Shown here: piece by piece, positions 6,698 to 48,608 of the stretch
Layout: every line of letters starts with the position of its first letter
Numbering within the stretch: position 1 is the first letter of the stretch
Source: Methanoculleus horonobensis
GTDB lineage: Archaea; Halobacteriota; Methanomicrobia; Methanomicrobiales; Methanoculleaceae
Assembly: GCF_001602375.1 (NCBI RefSeq)
Contig: NZ_BCNY01000011.1
Location: 62,001 to 126,000 of the forward strand
Direction: 5' to 3'
Length of the DNA: 64,000 bases
Made by a program: the position numbers and the translations under genes
The notes under the pieces: generated by a model
What the model was told of the DNA's origin: nothing
What the model saw: only the letters and a program-made list of their open reading frames with translations
The model's database searches: none

Positions 6698-7123
6698 TCA
6701 CTCACTTTTGATCTCGAGAGTGCGGCGGGTCTCGGGGTCCGTGCGAGAAGAGGCGTCCCGGGGAAGGGCCCTCTCCAGGGCGGCCTTCAACTCGGCAAGA
6801 GAGATGGGCTTTTCCAGGACACCGACGATATCGTTCGCGTATCTCGAATACTCTTCCGGCCAGACATGTTTTGCGGTGAAGAGCAAGACCGGGATATCCC
6901 TGTACTCGTCATTCCGTTTCAGTTCTTCCAGGAACTGCCATCCGTCTATAGGAGACATCATCACGTCGAGAATGATGAGTGCGGGTTTCTCCTTCTTGAT
7001 TGCCCGCAGCGCATCCCATCCGTTATGAACAAGGAGCGGTTCGCGGTTGATCTTCTTGAGCAGCAGCTCCATTACTTCCAGCGTCGGCAGGTCGTCGTCG
7101 ACGACCATGATCTTGTTTCCCAA
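6698..7123 (-). CDS. Single-domain CheY-like response regulator
   Basis: A 141-residue stand-alone receiver domain. Visible active-site residues are the acidic cluster D9-D11 (MVVDDD), phospho-acceptor D53 (IILDVMM), T83 (LLFTAK) and K105 (LEKPIS). There is no output domain, only a charged C-terminal tail of about 20 residues. It begins with TTG (MGNKIM), 8 nt after a GGGAGG Shine-Dalgarno sequence that overlaps the end of the upstream kinase gene, so the two are translationally coupled. The kinase at 7127-8920 is the obvious phosphodonor. How the signal leaves the receiver is unknown. Confidence 0.92.
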   Translation of the reverse strand: MGNKIMVVDDDLPTLEVMELLLKKINREPLLVHNGWDALRAIKKEKPALIILDVMMSPIDGWQFLEELKRNDEYRDIPVLLFTAKHVWPEEYSRYANDIVGVLEKPISLAELKAALERALPRDASSRTDPETRRTLEIKSE

Positions 7124-7126
7124 AGT

Positions 7127-8920
7127 TCATACCTCCCTTGGTATCCTGATGGTGAAGGTGCTCCCTTCGCCCACCTTACTCGTCACCGTTATATCCCCGC
7201 CATGCAACTGGACATACTTGTTCGCGATCGAGAGCCCAAGGCCGGCGCTGCCGCCTTTGCAGGCCTGCTCGGCGTCTCCTATGTAGAACGGCTCAAAGAT
7301 CGATTTGATAACATCTTCGGGGATACCGATGCCATTATCACACACCATAATATAATGGTTTTCATTTGATCTCGTATACCGGATCCATACTTTCTCTGGC
7401 GGTTCATTATACTTAACGGCATTCGATACCAGTCCCGCAACCACCATCGAAAGCCGATCGGGGTCTCCCATAATACGGACGTTATCAGGGATTTCATTAC
7501 AAATCCGGGCACTTTGTTCGTATTCGCCGTCCGATACGACAGCATCGACCAGTTCGTGGAGCGGCACCTCCTGAACGGTCAGATCGACGTAGTCCATCGT
7601 GAGCAGACTGAGCTCGACCGCCCTCTCCACCACCGCCATCTCCTTGTCGGCGCACGCAAGGCAGGTCTTGAGGATCTTCTCCGTATCCTTCGTGAGGCCG
7701 TAATAATCGGGATCTTCGACGAGCATCCGGAGATAGCCGACGAGCGGCTGCAGCGGGGTGCGTAACTCATGGGCGAGCTTGGTGACGAGCCCTTTCCACT
7801 GTTCGACCTCCCAGGAGAGCTGCCTGCACGCAAGGCTCTGCCGCCGCACCTCGGTGGTATCCCGTGCCGACCCCACGACGCCGGTGAACGCACCGTCCAC
7901 TCCGTTATACGGGGCGATCGCAACGGAGAAGTTGTGCCGGGCGCCTCCGATCTCCAGATCGAGGTCATAACAGGCGCCCTTCTGTTCTTCGATCACCTTC
8001 CGGATCTCTTCCATGTTCTGCGCGGCAAGGTCGCCAGGCAGGAGAGTGTCCACACACTTCCCGACGATCTCTTCGGGAGAGATCCCGTACTCGAGCGCAC
8101 GAACCCAGGAGAAGTGCAGGATGCAGCCCGCGGCATCCTGAATGAAGAAGATATCGTTTGTCTGCCGGATGAGATCCATCAGCCGCCCATTCGACCGGAT
8201 GAGCGCGTCGTTCTGGGTGAGGAGCCTTCCGGTGTCGACGACCGTGCATTCGAAGAGGTTCTCGATGGAAAGCACCCTGCAGGAGAGAAGAACTCTCCTC
8301 GCATCGCCGTTCTGCGCGTAAAATGTCATCTCCGCATTTCCGACGTAGCCTTCCCGCTCCATCTCCGCGATGAACCATGCCTTGCCGGCCTCGTCCGCCC
8401 AGAACGCCTCTGCCGGGATGCCGACGAGTTCCCGGGGCGCGTAACCGAGCATATCGGCACACTTTCTGCTGGCACAGACAACGCGGAGGGTCTCGGGATC
8501 GCAGAGGAACCTTGCATTTCGGGTATCCTCGATGATCCGCCTGCACCGGGAGGCAGCCAGATGAGATTCCTGAGAAAAGAGCGTCGCGGCCCCGAAGACC
8601 CAGAGGAAGATCATCGTGTGCAGCCCCGTCATCACAGGGTCGACGGCGAAGCCGAGCGTCGATAGGTACACCCGGATGATTACAAACCCGGCAACAAGGA
8701 ACGCTGTCGCCTTGAATGCCTGCCTCGGAAACCAGAGAGCAGCAAAGAGTATCGGGATGCAGAATGTCAGGGGACAGAAGAGCTGGGCGTTCATCGGTGT
8801 AGCCGCCGTGAGCATGAGCGACACCGCCGATAACGAAACCACCACGATCATTCTGACGATATCCGTCCCGGTAAAAAGATCCTGTTGAAAACCGCTCAAG
8901 AGGCTCCGGTTCAAGGCCAT
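7127..8920 (-). CDS. Membrane-bound PAS sensor histidine kinase
   Basis: A 597-residue kinase with about four hydrophobic N-terminal helices (roughly residues 20-120) anchoring it in the membrane. Two PAS domains follow (about 130-230 and 240-360), then a DHp domain with the H-box KLAHELRTPLQP (H384) and an HATPase_c domain. The latter shows VSNAVKYN (N-box), CDNGIGIPED (G1) and GGSAGLGLSI (G2). All catalytic boxes are intact. It forms an operon with the downstream receiver gene (3-nt gap). Transcription probably starts just before the ATG: the minus-strand TATA box GCTTATATAC sits about 30 nt upstream, and no Shine-Dalgarno is present. Confidence 0.92.
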   Translation of the reverse strand: MALNRSLLSGFQQDLFTGTDIVRMIVVVSLSAVSLMLTAATPMNAQLFCPLTFCIPILFAALWFPRQAFKATAFLVAGFVIIRVYLSTLGFAVDPVMTGLHTMIFLWVFGAATLFSQESHLAASRCRRIIEDTRNARFLCDPETLRVVCASRKCADMLGYAPRELVGIPAEAFWADEAGKAWFIAEMEREGYVGNAEMTFYAQNGDARRVLLSCRVLSIENLFECTVVDTGRLLTQNDALIRSNGRLMDLIRQTNDIFFIQDAAGCILHFSWVRALEYGISPEEIVGKCVDTLLPGDLAAQNMEEIRKVIEEQKGACYDLDLEIGGARHNFSVAIAPYNGVDGAFTGVVGSARDTTEVRRQSLACRQLSWEVEQWKGLVTKLAHELRTPLQPLVGYLRMLVEDPDYYGLTKDTEKILKTCLACADKEMAVVERAVELSLLTMDYVDLTVQEVPLHELVDAVVSDGEYEQSARICNEIPDNVRIMGDPDRLSMVVAGLVSNAVKYNEPPEKVWIRYTRSNENHYIMVCDNGIGIPEDVIKSIFEPFYIGDAEQACKGGSAGLGLSIANKYVQLHGGDITVTSKVGEGSTFTIRIPREV

Positions 8921-13571: not shown

Positions 13572-14318
13572 ATGCGCATCAGCCTCCGGACCTGGGAAGT
13601 AAGGCTCGGGATCATCCTCGTCGCTTCATCGGTCGTCATCTACGGCGTGAAACACCTCCTGCTCGGCGACGCCGAGAACACCTACCAGTATATCTTCAAC
13701 GCTCTCGGATTCCTTCCGATAAACGTCCTCCTGGTGACCCTCATCTTAAACCAGCTCCTGAGCGTCCGGGCAAAGCGCGACCGGTTGGACAAACTGAACA
13801 TGGTCATCGGCACCTTCTTCTCGGAGGTCGGCACCGAGCTCCTCACCATCCTCTCGGACCGCGACCCGAACCTCCCGGAGATCCGGCACGACCTCGTCGT
13901 GACGAACGCCTGGACGCCGGAGAAGTTCTCCGGGGTGCGCAGCCGTCTCCGGCACCACACCTGCCGGGTCACCGTCGGTGCCGCCGACCTGCAGGACCTC
14001 TGCCGGTACCTCAAAGAGCAGCGGGGGTTCCTCCTCCGCCTGCTCGAGAACCCCGTCCTCATGGAGCACGAGTCGTTCACCGACCTTTTGCGGGCGGTCT
14101 TTCACCTGACCGAAGAACTCGAACGGCGGGGCGACTTCGCCGGGCTCCCGGCAAGCGACGTCGAGCACCTCGCGGGGGACGTCGAGCGGGTCTACGGCCG
14201 GCTCATCGGAGAATGGCTCGCCTACATGGAGTACCTCCAGAGGAACTATCCGTACCTCTTCTCGCTTGCGATGCGGAGCAATCCCTTCGATGAGACAGCG
14301 TCGCCGATAGTGCGATAA
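13572..14318 (+). CDS. Conserved membrane-anchored protein, function unknown
   Basis: A 248-residue protein with two N-terminal transmembrane helices (about residues 12-32 and 40-65). A soluble helical domain with many charged and Leu/Glu residues follows (about 70-240), with coiled-coil-like stretches such as LEENPVLMEHESFTDLL. No enzymatic motif is seen. It could be a membrane scaffold or stress protein. It begins 53 nt after the epimerase gene on the same strand, so co-expression is possible but function transfer is not justified. Confidence 0.75.
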   Translation: MRISLRTWEVRLGIILVASSVVIYGVKHLLLGDAENTYQYIFNALGFLPINVLLVTLILNQLLSVRAKRDRLDKLNMVIGTFFSEVGTELLTILSDRDPNLPEIRHDLVVTNAWTPEKFSGVRSRLRHHTCRVTVGAADLQDLCRYLKEQRGFLLRLLENPVLMEHESFTDLLRAVFHLTEELERRGDFAGLPASDVEHLAGDVERVYGRLIGEWLAYMEYLQRNYPYLFSLAMRSNPFDETASPIVR

Positions 14319-16985: not shown

Positions 16986-17999
16986 TCACGGGGCCTCAAT
17001 CTGGTGGTGCTTGCGGAGATACTCCCGGATCGACGACGATTCGAGGAACCTCAGGTCGAGTTGCCGGACGGTATCGTCGATCATCTCCACCTGGAGCAGG
17101 ATCTTGTCGCGAGCGTCACCATCCATGAATCCGGCCAGTGCGGCGATCACCTGAAGGGGATTGCGGATCCGGTCGTTGAGGGTCATGAGTTGCTCGACAT
17201 TCTCCTCGATCTGCCGGAGCACCCTCTCCCGGGAATCGAAGTCCGGGAGAAGGACGTCCTCATCTTCAGTGCCGAAACAGATCCAACCGCCACAACACTC
17301 CCCGGGATCCAGTGCCGGGTGGCAGGTCCACCGGACGGGCACCCGCCCCCCACCGGCGGGCATGTAATCAACGACAAACTCAATCTCCCGCCCCTCTTCG
17401 AACCGCTTCCGGAGATAATTGCCGTCCCGATCGGACTTCGGCAGAACAGTCCCGACGGCATCTCGCCCGGCGAGTGCCGTGCGGGAGCGTCCGGCAAGGA
17501 TCGCTCCCGGGAGGTTGATGAACCGGATGCGGCGGTTGGCGTCCAGGGTCATGACAAAATACGAGATAGAATCGGCAGCGCGCCTGAATGCCTCGTCCCA
17601 TGCCCGGCGCAGGCACCCGGAGCGGTGGCGTGCGGCCGCGGCTGCCATCGCGGCGGCAAGGTCGTTCGGCCCGAAGGGTTTCTCCAGGATCTCCTCTCGC
17701 GAGAGCCCTTCCGGCCCGCCCGGAGGCAGCGCGTTCATCGGGTCTGCCGTCGTGAAGACGACGGGGATCTTCAGCCGGTCACGGATCGTAAGAGCCGTCG
17801 CGAGAGGGCTTTTCGGGCAGGGGAGGGAAGCGTCAAGGACGACAAAACCCGGCCGGGATGCCGCTGCGGCCGCGAGGGCGTCATCGCCACGCCCGACCAC
17901 GCTCACAACTGTATACCCCTCGCCCTGCAGCCAGCAGGAGACCTTTCCGGCGGCGTCACGGTCGGGTTCCGCAAGGAGGACGGTGCGATCCTCCGCCAT
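16986..17999 (-). CDS. Receiver-PAS protein with degenerate, His-less H-box
   Basis: A 337-residue soluble protein. An intact CheY receiver (about 1-125) shows the acceptor Asp in VVLDASLP and Lys in LEKPF. A PAS-like domain follows (about 140-250), then a helical C-terminal domain carrying NDRIRNPLQVIAAL. That motif aligns with kinase H-boxes (HE-IRNPL), but Asp stands where the phospho-accepting His belongs, and no HATPase domain follows. It thus cannot autophosphorylate as written and may be a phospho-relay receiver or adaptor. The protein at 46343-47479 has a similar tail. The start at 17999 sits 5 nt after a possible small upstream ORF; an ATG at 18017 is an alternative. Confidence 0.85.
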   Translation of the reverse strand: MAEDRTVLLAEPDRDAAGKVSCWLQGEGYTVVSVVGRGDDALAAAAASRPGFVVLDASLPCPKSPLATALTIRDRLKIPVVFTTADPMNALPPGGPEGLSREEILEKPFGPNDLAAAMAAAAARHRSGCLRRAWDEAFRRAADSISYFVMTLDANRRIRFINLPGAILAGRSRTALAGRDAVGTVLPKSDRDGNYLRKRFEEGREIEFVVDYMPAGGGRVPVRWTCHPALDPGECCGGWICFGTEDEDVLLPDFDSRERVLRQIEENVEQLMTLNDRIRNPLQVIAALAGFMDGDARDKILLQVEMIDDTVRQLDLRFLESSSIREYLRKHHQIEAP

Positions 18000-20858: not shown

Positions 20859-20920
20859 ACGGAGCGTGCCCCGATACCATCATGAACCGGAGATTGAGAA
20901 CCACAGGTGCGAAGGACAGG

Positions 20921-21052
20921 AGTTAAAGCACCGGAGAACGACGTTCCACCTGGGAACGGAGTTAGAGCACCGGAGAACGACGTTCCACCTGGGAACGGAG
21001 TTAGAGCACCGGAGAACGACGTTCCACCTGGGAACGGAGTTAGAGCACCGGA
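20921..21052. repeat. 39-bp tandem repeat, about 3.4 copies
   Basis: Direct repeats of 39 bp start at 20921, 20960 and 20999, with a partial copy at 21038. The copies are identical apart from one A/G change in the first. Each holds GAACG-A-CGTTC and CGTTCC-acctg-GGAACG, so a copy can fold into alternative hairpins. There are no unique spacers, so it is not a CRISPR array. It lies between a permease and a DUF1211 gene and all frames through it are low complexity. Confidence 0.9.
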
Positions 21053-21115
21053 GGTGCGGAGGTGCGGAGGTGCGGAGGTGCGGAGGTGCGGAGGTGCGGA
21101 GGTGCGGAGGTGCGA
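21052..21115. repeat. 8-bp microsatellite-like repeat, eight copies
   Basis: The unit aggtgcgg is repeated seven times perfectly, with an eighth copy ending in A. It abuts the 39-bp repeats. Because 8 is not divisible by 3, all three frames give the same 8-residue cycle, explaining several spurious repetitive ORFs on both strands. Confidence 0.92.
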
Positions 21116-21368: not shown

Positions 21369-21995
21369 ATGAAGCAGGGAGACGGCACCGGGAGAGAGTC
21401 GGAAGCATCCCTGGGTTATCCGAAGAACAGGGCGGAGGCGCTCACCGACGGCATATTTGCCTTCGCCATGACCCTCCTGGTAATCAGCCTCGACATCCCG
21501 GAAGGCTTGCGCGACCCCTCCGATGCCGCCGTCGCCGCGATGCTTGCCGGCCAGGTTCCCGCCCTCTTCCACTACTTCCTCGCGTTCTTCATCCTCGCTT
21601 CTTTCTGGATAGCGCACCACGCCCAGATCGACCGGCTCCGGCATATCGACCGCACCTTCCTCTGGATCAACATCGGGGCGCTGATGTTCGTAGTGCTGGT
21701 ACCGTTCTCCGTCTCCCTCATCAGCGACTATCCGGGTGAGACCTTCGCGGCAGTCATCTTCGAGGCGAACCTCCTCTTCATCGGCCTGCTCTTTGCCGCC
21801 CAGTGGTGGTATGCCGCGCATGACCGCCGGCTCGTCCGGCCCGGCACCGAGATCCGCCGCGGGAACCAGCGGGTGATGGTGGTGCCGGCCATCTCCGTCA
21901 TCGCAATCCTGCTCGCTCTCGCCGGCTGGGACTGGAGCACGGCGACCTACGCAATCATTCCACTCGTGATGCGCTTCCTTCCCCAGGGCAGGTGA
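21369..21995 (+). CDS. DUF1211/TMEM175-like membrane channel protein
   Basis: A 208-residue membrane protein with about six hydrophobic helices. The first carries NRAEALTDGIFAFAMTLLVISLDIP, matching the DUF1211 (TMEM175) signature. The canonical pore motif FSD reads LTD here, a known variation in archaeal/bacterial members. Prokaryotic TMEM175 proteins conduct K+; function here is inferred. The ATG at 21369 begins the conserved part, although the frame extends to 21312; no clear Shine-Dalgarno is present. The 3' end overlaps the convergent agmatine-enzyme gene by 41 nt. Confidence 0.8.
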   Translation: MKQGDGTGRESEASLGYPKNRAEALTDGIFAFAMTLLVISLDIPEGLRDPSDAAVAAMLAGQVPALFHYFLAFFILASFWIAHHAQIDRLRHIDRTFLWINIGALMFVVLVPFSVSLISDYPGETFAAVIFEANLLFIGLLFAAQWWYAAHDRRLVRPGTEIRRGNQRVMVVPAISVIAILLALAGWDWSTATYAIIPLVMRFLPQGR

Positions 21996-23889
21996 TCCGG
22001 GGCGCAGCGGACGGTTGCTGCTGGCTGATGCAGTGAACCGCGCCGAAACCCGCGACCATCGCCGTGCAGTCGATCCCGACGACCTCCCGGTCGGGGAAGA
22101 CCTGCTGGATCCGGGCTACGGCAATCCTGTCGTTCGGGTGCTTAAAAACCGGCACCAGCACGACGGTGTTTCCTATGTAGAAGTTCGCGTAACTCGCCGG
22201 CAGCCTCTCCGCGCCGCCGACCCTCCCCGGCATGGGAAGGGGGATGACCGTTAAGAGGTTGCCGTCCTGGTCGGTCGAGGAGAGGAGGATCTCGTAGTTC
22301 TCCTGGAGAACGGCGTAGTTCTCATCGTCCTCGTTCTCCTCGAGCGCACAGAAGACCGTCGTCGGATTCACGAACCGGGCGATATCGTCGACGTGGCCGT
22401 CGGTGTCGTCCCCAGCAATCCCCTGCTTTAACCAGATGACGTGGCCGGCGCCGAGGTACGCCTCCAGGTAGGCCTCGACCTCCTCCCGGGCGAGGTGCGG
22501 GTTCCGGTTGGGGTTTAAGAGGCAGGCCTCCGTCGTGATCACCGTGCCGCACCCGTTCACCTCGATCGACCCTCCCTCGAGGACGATCCCGGGGGTGAAG
22601 AGGGGGAGTTCCATCTCGCGGTTCATGGCAAGCGGGATCCGCGAATCCTCCATGAGTTCCGCGTACTTATTCCCCCAGGCGTTGAACGTCCAGTTCACCA
22701 TCGCGAGGTTCCCGGTCTTCCTGTTCACGAGGAACGTCGGCCCGTAGTCCCGGAACCAGACATCGGCGTAATTGGCGAGGTGGAACCTGATGCCGCCCGT
22801 ATCGACGCCTTCCTCCTCCAGCATCGCCTCGATCCGGGTGCGCATCGCTTCGCCCGTGACGAGGAGGTCGACGGTCTCCGAGCCGCGGAGCGCCGCGATG
22901 ATCTCGACATAGATCCCCTCCACCGCGGCAAGGTCGGGGAACGTCTCGCGGTCATGGGGCCAGGAGAGCCAGACCGCGTCGTGCGGCTCCCACTCCGCAG
23001 GCATCCGGTAGCCGGAAGCCGCAGGGGTCATGCCCGGCGGGAGTTTCCGGGCGAGCAGACCGTAGGTCTCCGGCCGCCGGTTCCGGAAGAATCCCCAGCC
23101 TTCCCGGACGGCCTCGTTCTCCGCGAGGTCGATCTCCACGACGAGTACCTCCTCACCGGTCTCGCTCGCCCGGGCGAGGACGTTCCCGAACGCGTCGGCG
23201 ACGAACGAGCTCCCGAAGAACCGGATATCGCCCTCGCTCCCCACCCGGTTGACGGCGGCGACGTGGACGCTGTTTGCGATCGCGTGACCGCGCTGCACCG
23301 TCTCCCACGCCTCGCGCCAGTCGCCTTCGGGCGGCTCTTCCCCGGCAATCCGGCCGATGGCGGTCGGGTAGAAGACGATCTCCGCGCCCATGAGCGCAAC
23401 CGCCCTCGCGGCCTCCGGGAACCACTGATCGTAACAGATGAGCACGGCAATCCGGCCGTAACGGGTATCGTAGACCCGATAGCGGTCGCCGGGCAGGAAG
23501 TAGGTCTTCTCGTAAAAGAGCGGGTCGTAGGGGACATGCACCTTCCGGTAGGCGGGGAGGAGCCTGCCGTCGGCGTCGATCACCACGGCAGTGTTGTAGT
23601 GCTCTCCTGAGGCGGCACGCTCGTAGACCGGCACGACGATCACCACGCCGTGCTCCCGGGCAAGCGCCGCGAAGGCTTCGGTCGACGGCCCCGGGATCGT
23701 CTCAGCGTAGCGGGAAGCGTCCGTATCCTCGTACTGCGGGAAGTAGGGGACGCGGTAGAGTTCCTGCAGGCAGAGGATCCGCGCACCCTTCGCGATCGCC
23801 GTTCTCGCCGCTTCAAGGGTGCGCTCCAGGTTGCGGTCGGCATCCTCGCTCACCGCCGTCTGGATGAGGCCGATCTTCTGTGTGCTCAT
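21955..23889 (-). CDS. Fused N-carbamoylputrescine amidase and agmatine deiminase
   Basis: A 644-residue fusion of two consecutive polyamine-pathway enzymes. Residues 1-290 are a nitrilase-superfamily amidase with the Glu-Lys-Cys triad E43 (LQELYR), K116 (AYRKVHVP) and C152 (ICYDQW), i.e. AguB type. Residues about 297-640 are an agmatine deiminase (AguA): AEWEPHDAVWLSWP, VWFRDYGPTF, EGGSIEVNG, DDTDGHVDD and the catalytic Cys near 620 in AVHCISQQQP. Together they convert agmatine via N-carbamoylputrescine to putrescine. The ATG at 23889 (MSTQKIG) is preferred, with GGAGAG about 9 nt upstream. The frame is open throughout with no internal stop. Confidence 0.92.
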   Translation of the reverse strand: MSTQKIGLIQTAVSEDADRNLERTLEAARTAIAKGARILCLQELYRVPYFPQYEDTDASRYAETIPGPSTEAFAALAREHGVVIVVPVYERAASGEHYNTAVVIDADGRLLPAYRKVHVPYDPLFYEKTYFLPGDRYRVYDTRYGRIAVLICYDQWFPEAARAVALMGAEIVFYPTAIGRIAGEEPPEGDWREAWETVQRGHAIANSVHVAAVNRVGSEGDIRFFGSSFVADAFGNVLARASETGEEVLVVEIDLAENEAVREGWGFFRNRRPETYGLLARKLPPGMTPAASGYRMPAEWEPHDAVWLSWPHDRETFPDLAAVEGIYVEIIAALRGSETVDLLVTGEAMRTRIEAMLEEEGVDTGGIRFHLANYADVWFRDYGPTFLVNRKTGNLAMVNWTFNAWGNKYAELMEDSRIPLAMNREMELPLFTPGIVLEGGSIEVNGCGTVITTEACLLNPNRNPHLAREEVEAYLEAYLGAGHVIWLKQGIAGDDTDGHVDDIARFVNPTTVFCALEENEDDENYAVLQENYEILLSSTDQDGNLLTVIPLPMPGRVGGAERLPASYANFYIGNTVVLVPVFKHPNDRIAVARIQQVFPDREVVGIDCTAMVAGFGAVHCISQQQPSAAPRITCPGEGSASRVE

Positions 23890-23988
23890 CTCCATCATCT
23901 CTCCGTATCCGTAGGGCACTCCAGCGTTTTATAGCATACGCCGCACCCACAGCGTTATCCCGCACCGTGCCGAACCTTTCCGGAAGCA

Positions 23989-46342: not shown

Positions 46343-47479
46343 TCAGAGATCTTCCTTATTGCGTTTCGAAAACCGGAAGAGCGCCTCTTTAAGAGACCCC
46401 GTGCCGTCCCCGTGCCGTCGCAGGAACTGCCTGACGTTCGCCGACTCGATCCATCCCCGGTCGAGTTCGGTGACGAAGCCGTCGATCCGGCGCGACTCTG
46501 CGAGGATCTTCTCTGCAAACGGGTCGTCGATCATCTCCGCGTACCCGACGATCACCTGCAGGGGATTCCGGATATGGTCCCCGAGGATGGCAAACTGCTC
46601 GATATTCTTCCCGAGCTGCGCGTAGGTCTCCCGCCTCATCTGATCGGTGAGGATGCGCTCGGTGATGTCCATCACGATCAGCATGATGCAGAGCGGCTGC
46701 CCGGCACCGTTCTGCACGACGCTGCCCGAGATCTGGACATGAAACGGAGACCCGTTGTTCCGCAGCCCGATCGTCTCCTGCACGATCGCATGGCTGTCGA
46801 GGAGGTGAGCGGTGACCCTCTCCCCGACGGTAGGGTCCGCGAAGAACGCCTCCAGGTTCCTCCCCGCGATCGCCCCCTCCCGCTCGTAGCCGAACATCGC
46901 GGTAAAACTCCGGTTGGCGTACATGACCGCTCCGGTGAGATCGGCGATGAGGATGCCGTTCGTCGAGGATTCGAGCGCGCTCTCCTTTATCCTGAGCTCC
47001 CTCTCGGTGTGGATCCGATCAGTGATGTCCCGTGCAATCGCGACGATATACTGCTCGGCGCCGAAGGTGACCGACCGGACGGTGATCTCCATCGGGATCT
47101 CCGTTCCGTCCCGCGCTACGAGCGGCGCGGTGAAGGCCTGCCGGAATTCGGACGGCAGATTGCTGCAATCCATGAGGAACTCGGAAAATTGAGCCTGTTT
47201 TGAGGGGCAGATCAGATCGATGAACAGTTTTTTGAGCAGTTCCTTCTTCGAGTAGCCGAGATACGCCCTCACGGATGCGTTGACGTCCGTAAGCCTCCCG
47301 GTCTCCGCACGGATCAGGAATATCGCGTCGTACGTCTGGTCGAGCAGCGCCCGGAACCGCTCGAGTTCGGCAAGCCGGCTCTGCAGCTCGGGATAGTAAC
47401 TCTTGTGCAGGGACGTCTCTCCGAGGCCGATGATCTTCTCGCGGAGCGCGTCCCGGTCTTCGGGGGCTTCAGAAGGCAT
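46343..47479 (-). CDS. Two-PAS protein with His-less H-box tail
   Basis: A 378-residue soluble sensor-like protein. PAS 1 covers about residues 40-155 (LLDQTYDAIFLIRAETGRLTDVN) and PAS 2 about 165-290 (SALESSTNGILIADLTGAVMYANRSF). The tail carries LGDHIRNPLQVIVGYAEMIDDPFAEKI. Aligned to HE-IRNPL H-boxes, Asp replaces the phospho-accepting His, and no HATPase domain follows. Its start (ATG 47479) lies 11 nt inside the end of the upstream Fe-ADH gene, so translation is coupled. A relative with an N-terminal receiver is at 16986-17999. It may bind or regulate a kinase rather than act as one. Confidence 0.85.
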   Translation of the reverse strand: MPSEAPEDRDALREKIIGLGETSLHKSYYPELQSRLAELERFRALLDQTYDAIFLIRAETGRLTDVNASVRAYLGYSKKELLKKLFIDLICPSKQAQFSEFLMDCSNLPSEFRQAFTAPLVARDGTEIPMEITVRSVTFGAEQYIVAIARDITDRIHTERELRIKESALESSTNGILIADLTGAVMYANRSFTAMFGYEREGAIAGRNLEAFFADPTVGERVTAHLLDSHAIVQETIGLRNNGSPFHVQISGSVVQNGAGQPLCIMLIVMDITERILTDQMRRETYAQLGKNIEQFAILGDHIRNPLQVIVGYAEMIDDPFAEKILAESRRIDGFVTELDRGWIESANVRQFLRRHGDGTGSLKEALFRFSKRNKEDL

Positions 47480-48608
47480 GCATATAAATCCGTTCGATCT
47501 CGTCGCAGGCAAGGCTGCGCGGGTTGGTTACCATGCAGGGATCGTTGTATGCCGCTTCGGCAAGGGCGGGAATCGCATCCTCCCGGACGCCGGCCGTGGC
47601 GAGGGTCTCGGTGATCCCGAGCGCCCTCCGAAACGCCCCCACCTCCTCTGCCGGGGTCGCCCGGCCCGGCCCGAAGATCGCACCAATTCGGTCGTAGCGG
47701 CCGGATGCCGCCTCGTAGTTGGCTGCCATCACGTGCTCGAGCAGCAGCGCGTTGCACCGCCCGTGCGCAAGGTCGTAGGCGCCCCCGAGACAGTGCGCCA
47801 TCGCGTGCACCGCCCCGAGACTGGCGTTCGAGAACGCGAGCCCGGCGTGAAGGCTGGCAAGGAGGGTCGAGAACCGCAGGTTCAGGTCGTCGGGCTCCTC
47901 AACGGCCGCAGGCAGTGCGCTCGCGATGAGCCGGATCCCCTCGAGAGCATGCATATCGGTCATCGGAGAACTGGCGTTCGAGACGTAGGCCTCGATCGCG
48001 TGGCTGAGGGTATCCATGCCGGTATTCACGGTCAGATCCCGCGGCATCGTCGTCAGGGGCTCGGGATCGAGCAGGGAGATGTCGGGGACGAGCGTTTTCG
48101 AGACAATGGCGATCTTCCGTCTTCTCTCTTCGTCCGTGATGATGGCGAACTGGGAGACGTCTGCGGAACTCCCGGCGGTGGTCGGGATGCAGATGAGCGG
48201 CGGGGCAGGCACCGGCACCCGGTCGACGCCCTCGAACGCGAGGATATCGCGCATGTTGGAGGACGCTATCCCGATCCCTTTGGCGCAGTCCATCGGGCTG
48301 CCGCCGCCGACAGCGACGATGCCGTTGCACTCCTCGGCGAGATACGCTTCTTTACCCGCCATAACCTGCCGGGAGCGGGGGTTTACGGAGACGGAGTCGA
48401 AGACGGTGAACGATACCCCCGCTTCGGTCAGGCTCTCCCCGACGGCCCCGGCCCAGCCTGCGGCCCGGACGCCCGGGTCGGTGACGAGGAGGACATGCCT
48501 CATCCCGAAGTTGCGGGCATACCGGCCGGCGAGACGCAGTGCGCCGTCTCCGCAGATAAATTCAGGAGCTACGAATTTTCGTAAGTCGAGCTGGCTTCGC
48601 TGGATCAT
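47469..48608 (-). CDS. Iron-containing alcohol dehydrogenase (group III)
   Basis: A 379-residue Fe-ADH. GIVAVGGGSPMDCAKGIG is the NAD-binding GGGSxxD motif. PTTAGSSADVSQFAII, TGMDTLSHAIEAYVSN and AMAHCLGGAYDLAHGRCNALLL provide the Asp and three His iron ligands. The overall form recalls ErcA-like members, which work with PAS sensor kinases in ethanol metabolism of pseudomonads. The coupled downstream PAS protein makes a similar link conceivable. The ATG at 48608 lies within the first copy of a duplicated 13-bp segment and has no Shine-Dalgarno. Confidence 0.9.
   Translation of the reverse strand: MIQRSQLDLRKFVAPEFICGDGALRLAGRYARNFGMRHVLLVTDPGVRAAGWAGAVGESLTEAGVSFTVFDSVSVNPRSRQVMAGKEAYLAEECNGIVAVGGGSPMDCAKGIGIASSNMRDILAFEGVDRVPVPAPPLICIPTTAGSSADVSQFAIITDEERRRKIAIVSKTLVPDISLLDPEPLTTMPRDLTVNTGMDTLSHAIEAYVSNASSPMTDMHALEGIRLIASALPAAVEEPDDLNLRFSTLLASLHAGLAFSNASLGAVHAMAHCLGGAYDLAHGRCNALLLEHVMAANYEAASGRYDRIGAIFGPGRATPAEEVGAFRRALGITETLATAGVREDAIPALAEAAYNDPCMVTNPRSLACDEIERIYMHAF

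Follow-up and report, generated by a model that had tools for sequence, protein, structure and literature searches.

An archaeal family of sensor-protein tails derived from HisKA carries aspartate at the phospho-histidine position

Proteins with a HisKA-like domain but no histidine-kinase ATPase domain have been known since 2018, when Galperin et al. recorded them in Methanomicrobia and Archaeoglobi (PMC5847659). The text of that survey describes them as “with a conserved His residue”, names them “Nonenzymatic HK-like proteins” or “HisKA, no HATPase”, and raises phosphatase activity as a possibility for them. We describe a family of tails that resembles this set in having front sensors, a C-terminal HisKA-like domain, no HATPase domain and an occurrence in Methanomicrobia and Archaeoglobi. 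Unlike the “conserved His” of the survey text, the phospho-His position (position 0) holds Asp in all 75 non-redundant tails, and His appears one step later in 46 of them. This Asp is the new point here; in the titles and abstracts searched, we found no description of an Asp substitution at the HisKA phospho-His site.

How a HisKA hairpin divides kinase from phosphatase activity has been described for CrdS, in which H371 and E372 (position + 1) are needed for the kinase, E372 serves the kinase only, and N375 (position + 4, or H + 4) serves the phosphatase only (PMC3510030). The half-life of the phosphorylated CrdS regulator is given there as 53.5 min alone, 0.7 min with the wild type, and 2.6, 0.4 and 47.6 min with H371A, E372A and N375A, respectively. 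The same article reports that H371A retains much phosphatase activity, that in PleC the equivalent substitution abolishes it, and that CheZ and HisKA_3 use a DxxxQ motif. For HK853, DHp constructs were used in phosphatase work, and H260A lowered activity (PMC5727384); the pH switch proposed for HK853 in that article is disputed (PMC7005713). As described in PMC4211667, the Caulobacter pseudo-histidine kinase DivL is like the tails in joining PAS sensors to a DHp domain with a non-His residue at the site, but in DivL that residue is Tyr and the CA domain is kept, whereas in the tails it is Asp and a CA domain is lacking. A different case from the tails is that of Methanosarcina kinases that lack an H-box yet are reported to bind ATP (PMC11784639).

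The window analyzed here is a 64,000-nucleotide stretch of the Methanoculleus horonobensis genome (contig NZ_BCNY01000011.1), in which a 337-aa protein drew attention by its C-terminal tail (Table 1). Its gene is convergent with a korB-like gene, with 19 bases between the two.

Table 1. Position and domain content of the two tail-bearing genes of the window
Feature	Residues	Window position	Strand	Remarks
Tail-bearing gene		16986..17999	minus	Single open frame from ATG to stop, 337 aa
Receiver, probably degenerate	7-117	17649..17981	minus	Pfam 27.1 bits, cut-off 30.2
PAS domain	143-244	17268..17573	minus	Pfam PAS_4, 29.1 bits
Tail, HisKA-derived hairpin without His or ATPase domain	257-337	16989..17231	minus	Nine genome copies, HisKA matches of paralogues, predicted hairpin
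NDRIRNPLQVIAAL	275-288	about 17136-17177	minus	Asp276 = phospho-His position, Asn280 = H + 4
Second tail protein, PAS-PAS-tail, DHIRNPL		46343..47512	minus	389 aa

The original prediction was that a degenerate motif shared by two proteins of the window reflects more than chance. The motif NDRIRNPLQVIAAL is present in the 337-aa protein, as is the PAS-like domain assigned to it, and the two tails align without gaps over 75 residues at 41% identity (E = 1e-16, the two being compared on their own). Across the genome (15 contigs, 2.45 Mb in total), a search found nine tails: the query, at 1.9e-47, and eight more with E values between 3.3e-15 and 8.7e-10. Eleven columns are invariant among the nine. 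Since the similarity spans 75 residues and further genome tails, a chance match of the motif with no wider likeness between the tails is ruled out. The sharing of the tail by two proteins is correct for the window pair but not as a total, and “His-less” is accurate for the 337-aa protein but not for the family, as seven of the nine genome tails have His directly after the phospho-acceptor position.

The last 80 residues of the 337-aa protein have no Pfam match at E ≤ 1, HisKA included. All eight paralogue tails match Pfam HisKA (20.8–33.4 bits), and three of them reach or exceed the cut-off (26.9). When the genome was scanned with the HisKA model, 19 places were found: eight are tails, and the other 11 have His in the H-box with an HATPase_c match close behind, a domain that Pfam places in none of the nine tail proteins. 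Compared with HisKA (PF00512), the tails have a homologous hairpin in the same H-box register but differ in lacking the His and the ATPase domain, in their shorter hairpin, and in a C-terminal motif of their own, LDxGWxES. On the tails, NCBIfam gave partial kinase models alone, far below their cut-offs. The output domains MetOD1 and MetOD2 (PF18546, PF18548) were considered and set aside, appearing neither among the matches of the 337-aa protein (E ≤ 1) nor among the 24 families listed for the 75 tail proteins. An in-window contrast to the tails lies at 6722-8920 (minus strand), where a free-standing receiver adjoins an ordinary PAS-PAS-HisKA-HATPase kinase reading AHELRTPL.

The 75 tails comprise 52 from the order and 23 from outside it. 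Of the tail-profile matches, those containing X or at least three gaps near the site were removed, leaving 188; reduction to less than 80% identity left 79, and four of these (below 34 bits, His at the site) were tallied separately. The sample is not blind, as the loci are mostly each genome’s best match and Asp-bearing tails were the source of the profile. Asp at position 0 is the sole invariant column of the full-length alignment. At + 1 we find His 46, Arg 8, Gln 6, Glu 5, Lys 4, Ala 2, Ser 2, Gly 1 and Leu 1, so that the acid is absent in 70 tails and kept in five. Position + 3 is Arg in 73 and Lys in two; + 4 is Asn in 64, Gln in six, His in four and Leu in one; and + 5 is Pro in 74 and Ala in one. 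The Leu at + 4 marks one non-redundant tail group, with many Methanoculleus orthologues. Between 0 and 53 residues follow the tail. HATPase_c was found in none of the 75 (Pfam, E ≤ 0.001). The domains ahead of the tail, which the original prediction had proposed to survey, are PAS and GAF, sometimes a receiver or CHASE4; in Pfam counts, which are limited by the cutting of many upstream parts at about 500 residues, HisKA occurs in 58 of the 75 proteins, PAS_9 in 63, GAF_2 in 18, a receiver in seven and CHASE4 in six.

At its weak end, the profile reaches kinase-type proteins reading LAHDIRNPL and similar, in ungapped register with the LxDHIRNPL of the tails. Six low-scoring, His-bearing matches of this type were fetched, and five have HATPase_c. 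One locus (L196, genome G235) has a 263-aa PAS-HisKA frame that bears His and shows no HATPase_c match; either a frameshift accounts for this, or it is a genuine ATPase-less protein with His, a kind that may exist. In quick trees, 59 tails lie on one side of a single branch from 17 kinase-type sequences (SH-aLRT 99), and this split holds with positions 0 and + 1 masked; the trees rest on 85–87 columns and a quick search, and most forks are open. Three receiver-bearing sequences (L116, L117 and L189, in genomes G085 and G140) are divergent tails that read DRIRNPLQVI and lack the WxES end, and perhaps form a sister group.

AlphaFold2, run on 24 tails, predicts a helical hairpin (residues 7–42 and 48–85 of 90) with a mean pLDDT of 83.7. 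In a Foldseek comparison with the PDB, the top eight places go to structures that contain a DHp (CpxA, HAMP-DHp fusions, ERS1), at E 0.5–1.3 and with none at E 0.001, and VIA-align gave Z of 8.4 or less, with DHp structures mixed among unrelated helical proteins. The predicted fold is consistent with a DHp hairpin without proving it, and homology to HisKA rests on the evidence given above.

In the genus, eight of 35 genomes, including the source genome, match the 337-aa protein at E ≤ 1e-20, and our comparison of the locus covers these eight. In all seven other genomes, a tail gene stands at the same place, convergent with korAB-like genes, and retains NDRIRNPLQVI. The first gene of the korAB-like pair has POR domains (Pfam), and the second we take to be korAB-like from its sequence; the pair is conserved at the locus, yet as neighbors these genes give no functional hint. 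The front of the protein varies: G092 and G145 have receiver and PAS, G063 has the receiver fused directly to the tail, G016 has the same PAS with the receiver missing, and G088, G052 and G108 have a different front, which in G052 is a PAS by Pfam. Against the source genome, dN/dS for tail, receiver and PAS is 0.23, 0.42 and 0.49 in G092 and 0.36, 0.61 and 0.56 in G145; it is 0.30 for the tail and 0.34 for PAS in G016 (receiver sites too few), and 0.42 for the tail and 0.41 for the receiver in G063 (PAS sites too few). The tail thus has the lowest ratio of the testable domains in three of four comparisons, and in G063 tail and receiver are equally constrained. Because of these swaps and deletions, together with the dN/dS values, we conclude that the tail is what stays constant, with an exchangeable front. 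A fixed pairing of receiver and tail is not supported, either at this locus or among the 75, where a receiver is found in seven.

The receiver of the 337-aa protein had been taken as intact, which our results do not support. The genome has 12 receiver matches, of which this one alone falls below the Pfam cut-off, and its acidic pair reads Glu-Pro versus two acids in the ten other genome receivers that cover the stretch; the phospho-Asp, Thr and Lys are retained. In the orthologues the pair is Glu-Pro, Asp-Pro or Val-Pro, G145 has Ser for the phospho-Asp, and the Lys is missing in G145 and G063. This receiver is probably a degenerate input or a passenger. Tail-joined receivers of other lineages (L106, L076, L183, L100) can look ordinary.

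Other features of the window are recorded here as side observations. A 248-aa protein with no Pfam match (13572-14318, plus strand) lies beside the korAB-like genes in each of the seven other genomes, in one of them partial at a contig end. At 20919-21114, just past a transporter gene, tandem repeats have a 39-base unit in 3.5 copies with 98% matches, and beside them CGGAGGTG is repeated 8.2 times at 100%. At 21955-23919 (minus strand), a 654-aa fusion joins a carbon-nitrogen hydrolase (residues 16-272) to a PAD_porph-type agmatine deiminase (305-636), which we take to be two likely polyamine-route enzymes in a single chain.

Tails were present in 113 of the 150 sampled genomes of the order (profile search with alignment A1, E ≤ 1e-3). 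At the level of the class, 171 of 232 genomes have tails (A2, E ≤ 1e-5); the genomes listed are all from the same order, and among the class-search matches listed, genus g20 has none. Across the phylum, tails occur in 119 of 392 genomes, of which 53 lie outside the order and 40 of those 53 in family f9. We infer that f9 is Archaeoglobaceae because a named Archaeoglobus locus (L078) bears the same tail. The highest number in one genome is at least 23, and per-genome counts in the class and phylum searches are lower bounds, with 23 and 13 first-look candidates scored per genome. A scan of named genomes, with patterns derived from one paralogue tail, gave 31 loci, 30 in methanogen or euryarchaeal records and one in Archaeoglobus; the profile searches covered the phylum of the window. 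This spread, the uniform Asp, the low dN/dS of the tail and the one-branch split of the tree agree with the original prediction of a dedicated, conserved module, and random decay is ruled out by the Asp and by dN/dS at the orthologues.

The 2018 survey gives a count of seven for M. marisnigri JR1, and the presumed JR1 genome holds seven tails, with Asp at the site in each, followed by His in six and Arg in one. For M. petrolearia the survey likewise gives seven (PMC5847659), and the presumed genome of that species holds 14 tails. Given this second count, the survey’s set, which we compared through its text and not its tables, may differ from ours.

We propose, at a probability of about 45%, that the tail acts as a pseudo-DHp gated by sensors, docking on response regulators and, most likely, dephosphorylating them. 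With its ATPase domain gone and Asp in place of the phosphorylated His, this HisKA-type DHp hairpin would be unable to phosphorylate itself. The upstream sensors (PAS, GAF, sometimes receiver or CHASE4) would set the conformation of the hairpin, which as a dimer would dock on phosphorylated receiver proteins as the DHp of a kinase does. The output would most likely be dephosphorylation of the bound regulator, the Asn (or Gln or His) at H + 4 placing a water, and the Asp four residues ahead would complete an acid-plus-amide pair with CheZ-like spacing (DxxxQ). The tails combine HisKA homology, absence of the ATPase domain, Asp at the site, loss of the kinase-specific acid, retention of Asn, Gln or His at H + 4, and swappable fronts. 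Dimerization, docking, phosphatase chemistry and sensor control are what we infer from this. A sensor-gated phosphatase is our best guess because both kinase residues are lost, H + 4 Asn, Gln or His is mostly kept, and Asp0/Asn + 4 is CheZ-like. The first helix is also alike among the nine paralogues, with a mean pairwise identity of 63% over 25 residues versus 37% for the genome’s 11 kinases, which would fit a common partner. The tails are like the DxxxQ of CheZ and HisKA_3 (PMC3510030) in having acid and amide four residues from each other on a presumably receiver-facing helix, and unlike it in mostly having Asn rather than Gln; the likeness is one of motif, and the phosphatase activity is putative.

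Several points count against a phosphatase. Conservation is stricter for Asp than for Asn, a difference left unexplained by the known mechanism of HisKA phosphatases, and one tail group has Leu at + 4. By analogy, loss of the His might be expected to lower the activity, as in HK853 and CrdS, or to abolish it, as in PleC. PDB matches are at E ≥ 0.5, and only two of the nine tail genes adjoin a kinase gene by genome coordinates. DivL, also without His, has no phosphatase activity in the account of PMC4211667. The main rival reading follows from DivL: a pseudo-DHp that binds phosphorylated regulators without hydrolysis, relaying their state or titrating them, as DivL does with DivK~P. DivL, with Tyr at the His site and PAS in front, is described as binding DivK~P without kinase or phosphatase activity and with a dispensable CA domain (PMC4211667), and the tails likewise carry a fixed non-His residue at the site. 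We nevertheless consider such a reader or sink rather unlikely, as 74 of 75 tails keep a residue of the water-placing type at H + 4, and binding alone would have no need of one.

The two tail genes beside kinase genes, and the homology of the tail to a dimerization domain, would also suit a hairpin that heterodimerizes with the cell’s true kinases, inhibiting or redirecting them. We regard this as improbable, since the first helices of the tails and of the genome’s kinases are not much alike by eye and most tail genes lie away from kinases. Equally little weight goes to a tail that merely dimerizes its sensor, or binds a non-receiver partner through LDxGWxES: the LD pair is invariant and the WxES part common in the family alignments, but this reading leaves the invariant Asp at the former active site and the Asn at H + 4 unexplained. 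Least probable is a phospho-relay through the His at + 1. The 2018 survey considers a phospho-acceptor role for the His of ATPase-less proteins (PMC5847659), and the + 1 His is common in the tails; it is missing, however, in 29 of 75, including that of the 337-aa protein, while the Asp never changes.

Returning to the sensor-gated phosphatase, the genome’s 12 receiver matches include six in open frames that also hold HATPase_c (35 HATPase_c matches in all, not all of them kinases), so the nine tails would share a small number of free regulators. More tentatively, we suggest a single origin, in which an exchange of His-Asp to Asp-His in the H-box, with loss of the ATPase half, would once have turned a kinase hairpin into ATP-independent, sensor-gated regulator phosphatases with a CheZ-like DxxxN/Q; these would have multiplied in Methanomicrobiales, with a highest count of at least 23 copies in one genome, and be shared with Archaeoglobi, many sensors draining few shared regulators.

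Should Asp prove invariant at this position, a considerable number of archaeal “kinases” would be unable either to form phospho-His there or to carry it, which would alter how archaeal two-component systems are counted and how their wiring is modeled. With the kinase residues lost and the phosphatase residue kept, the role of ATPase-less HisKA proteins becomes testable by two point mutants.
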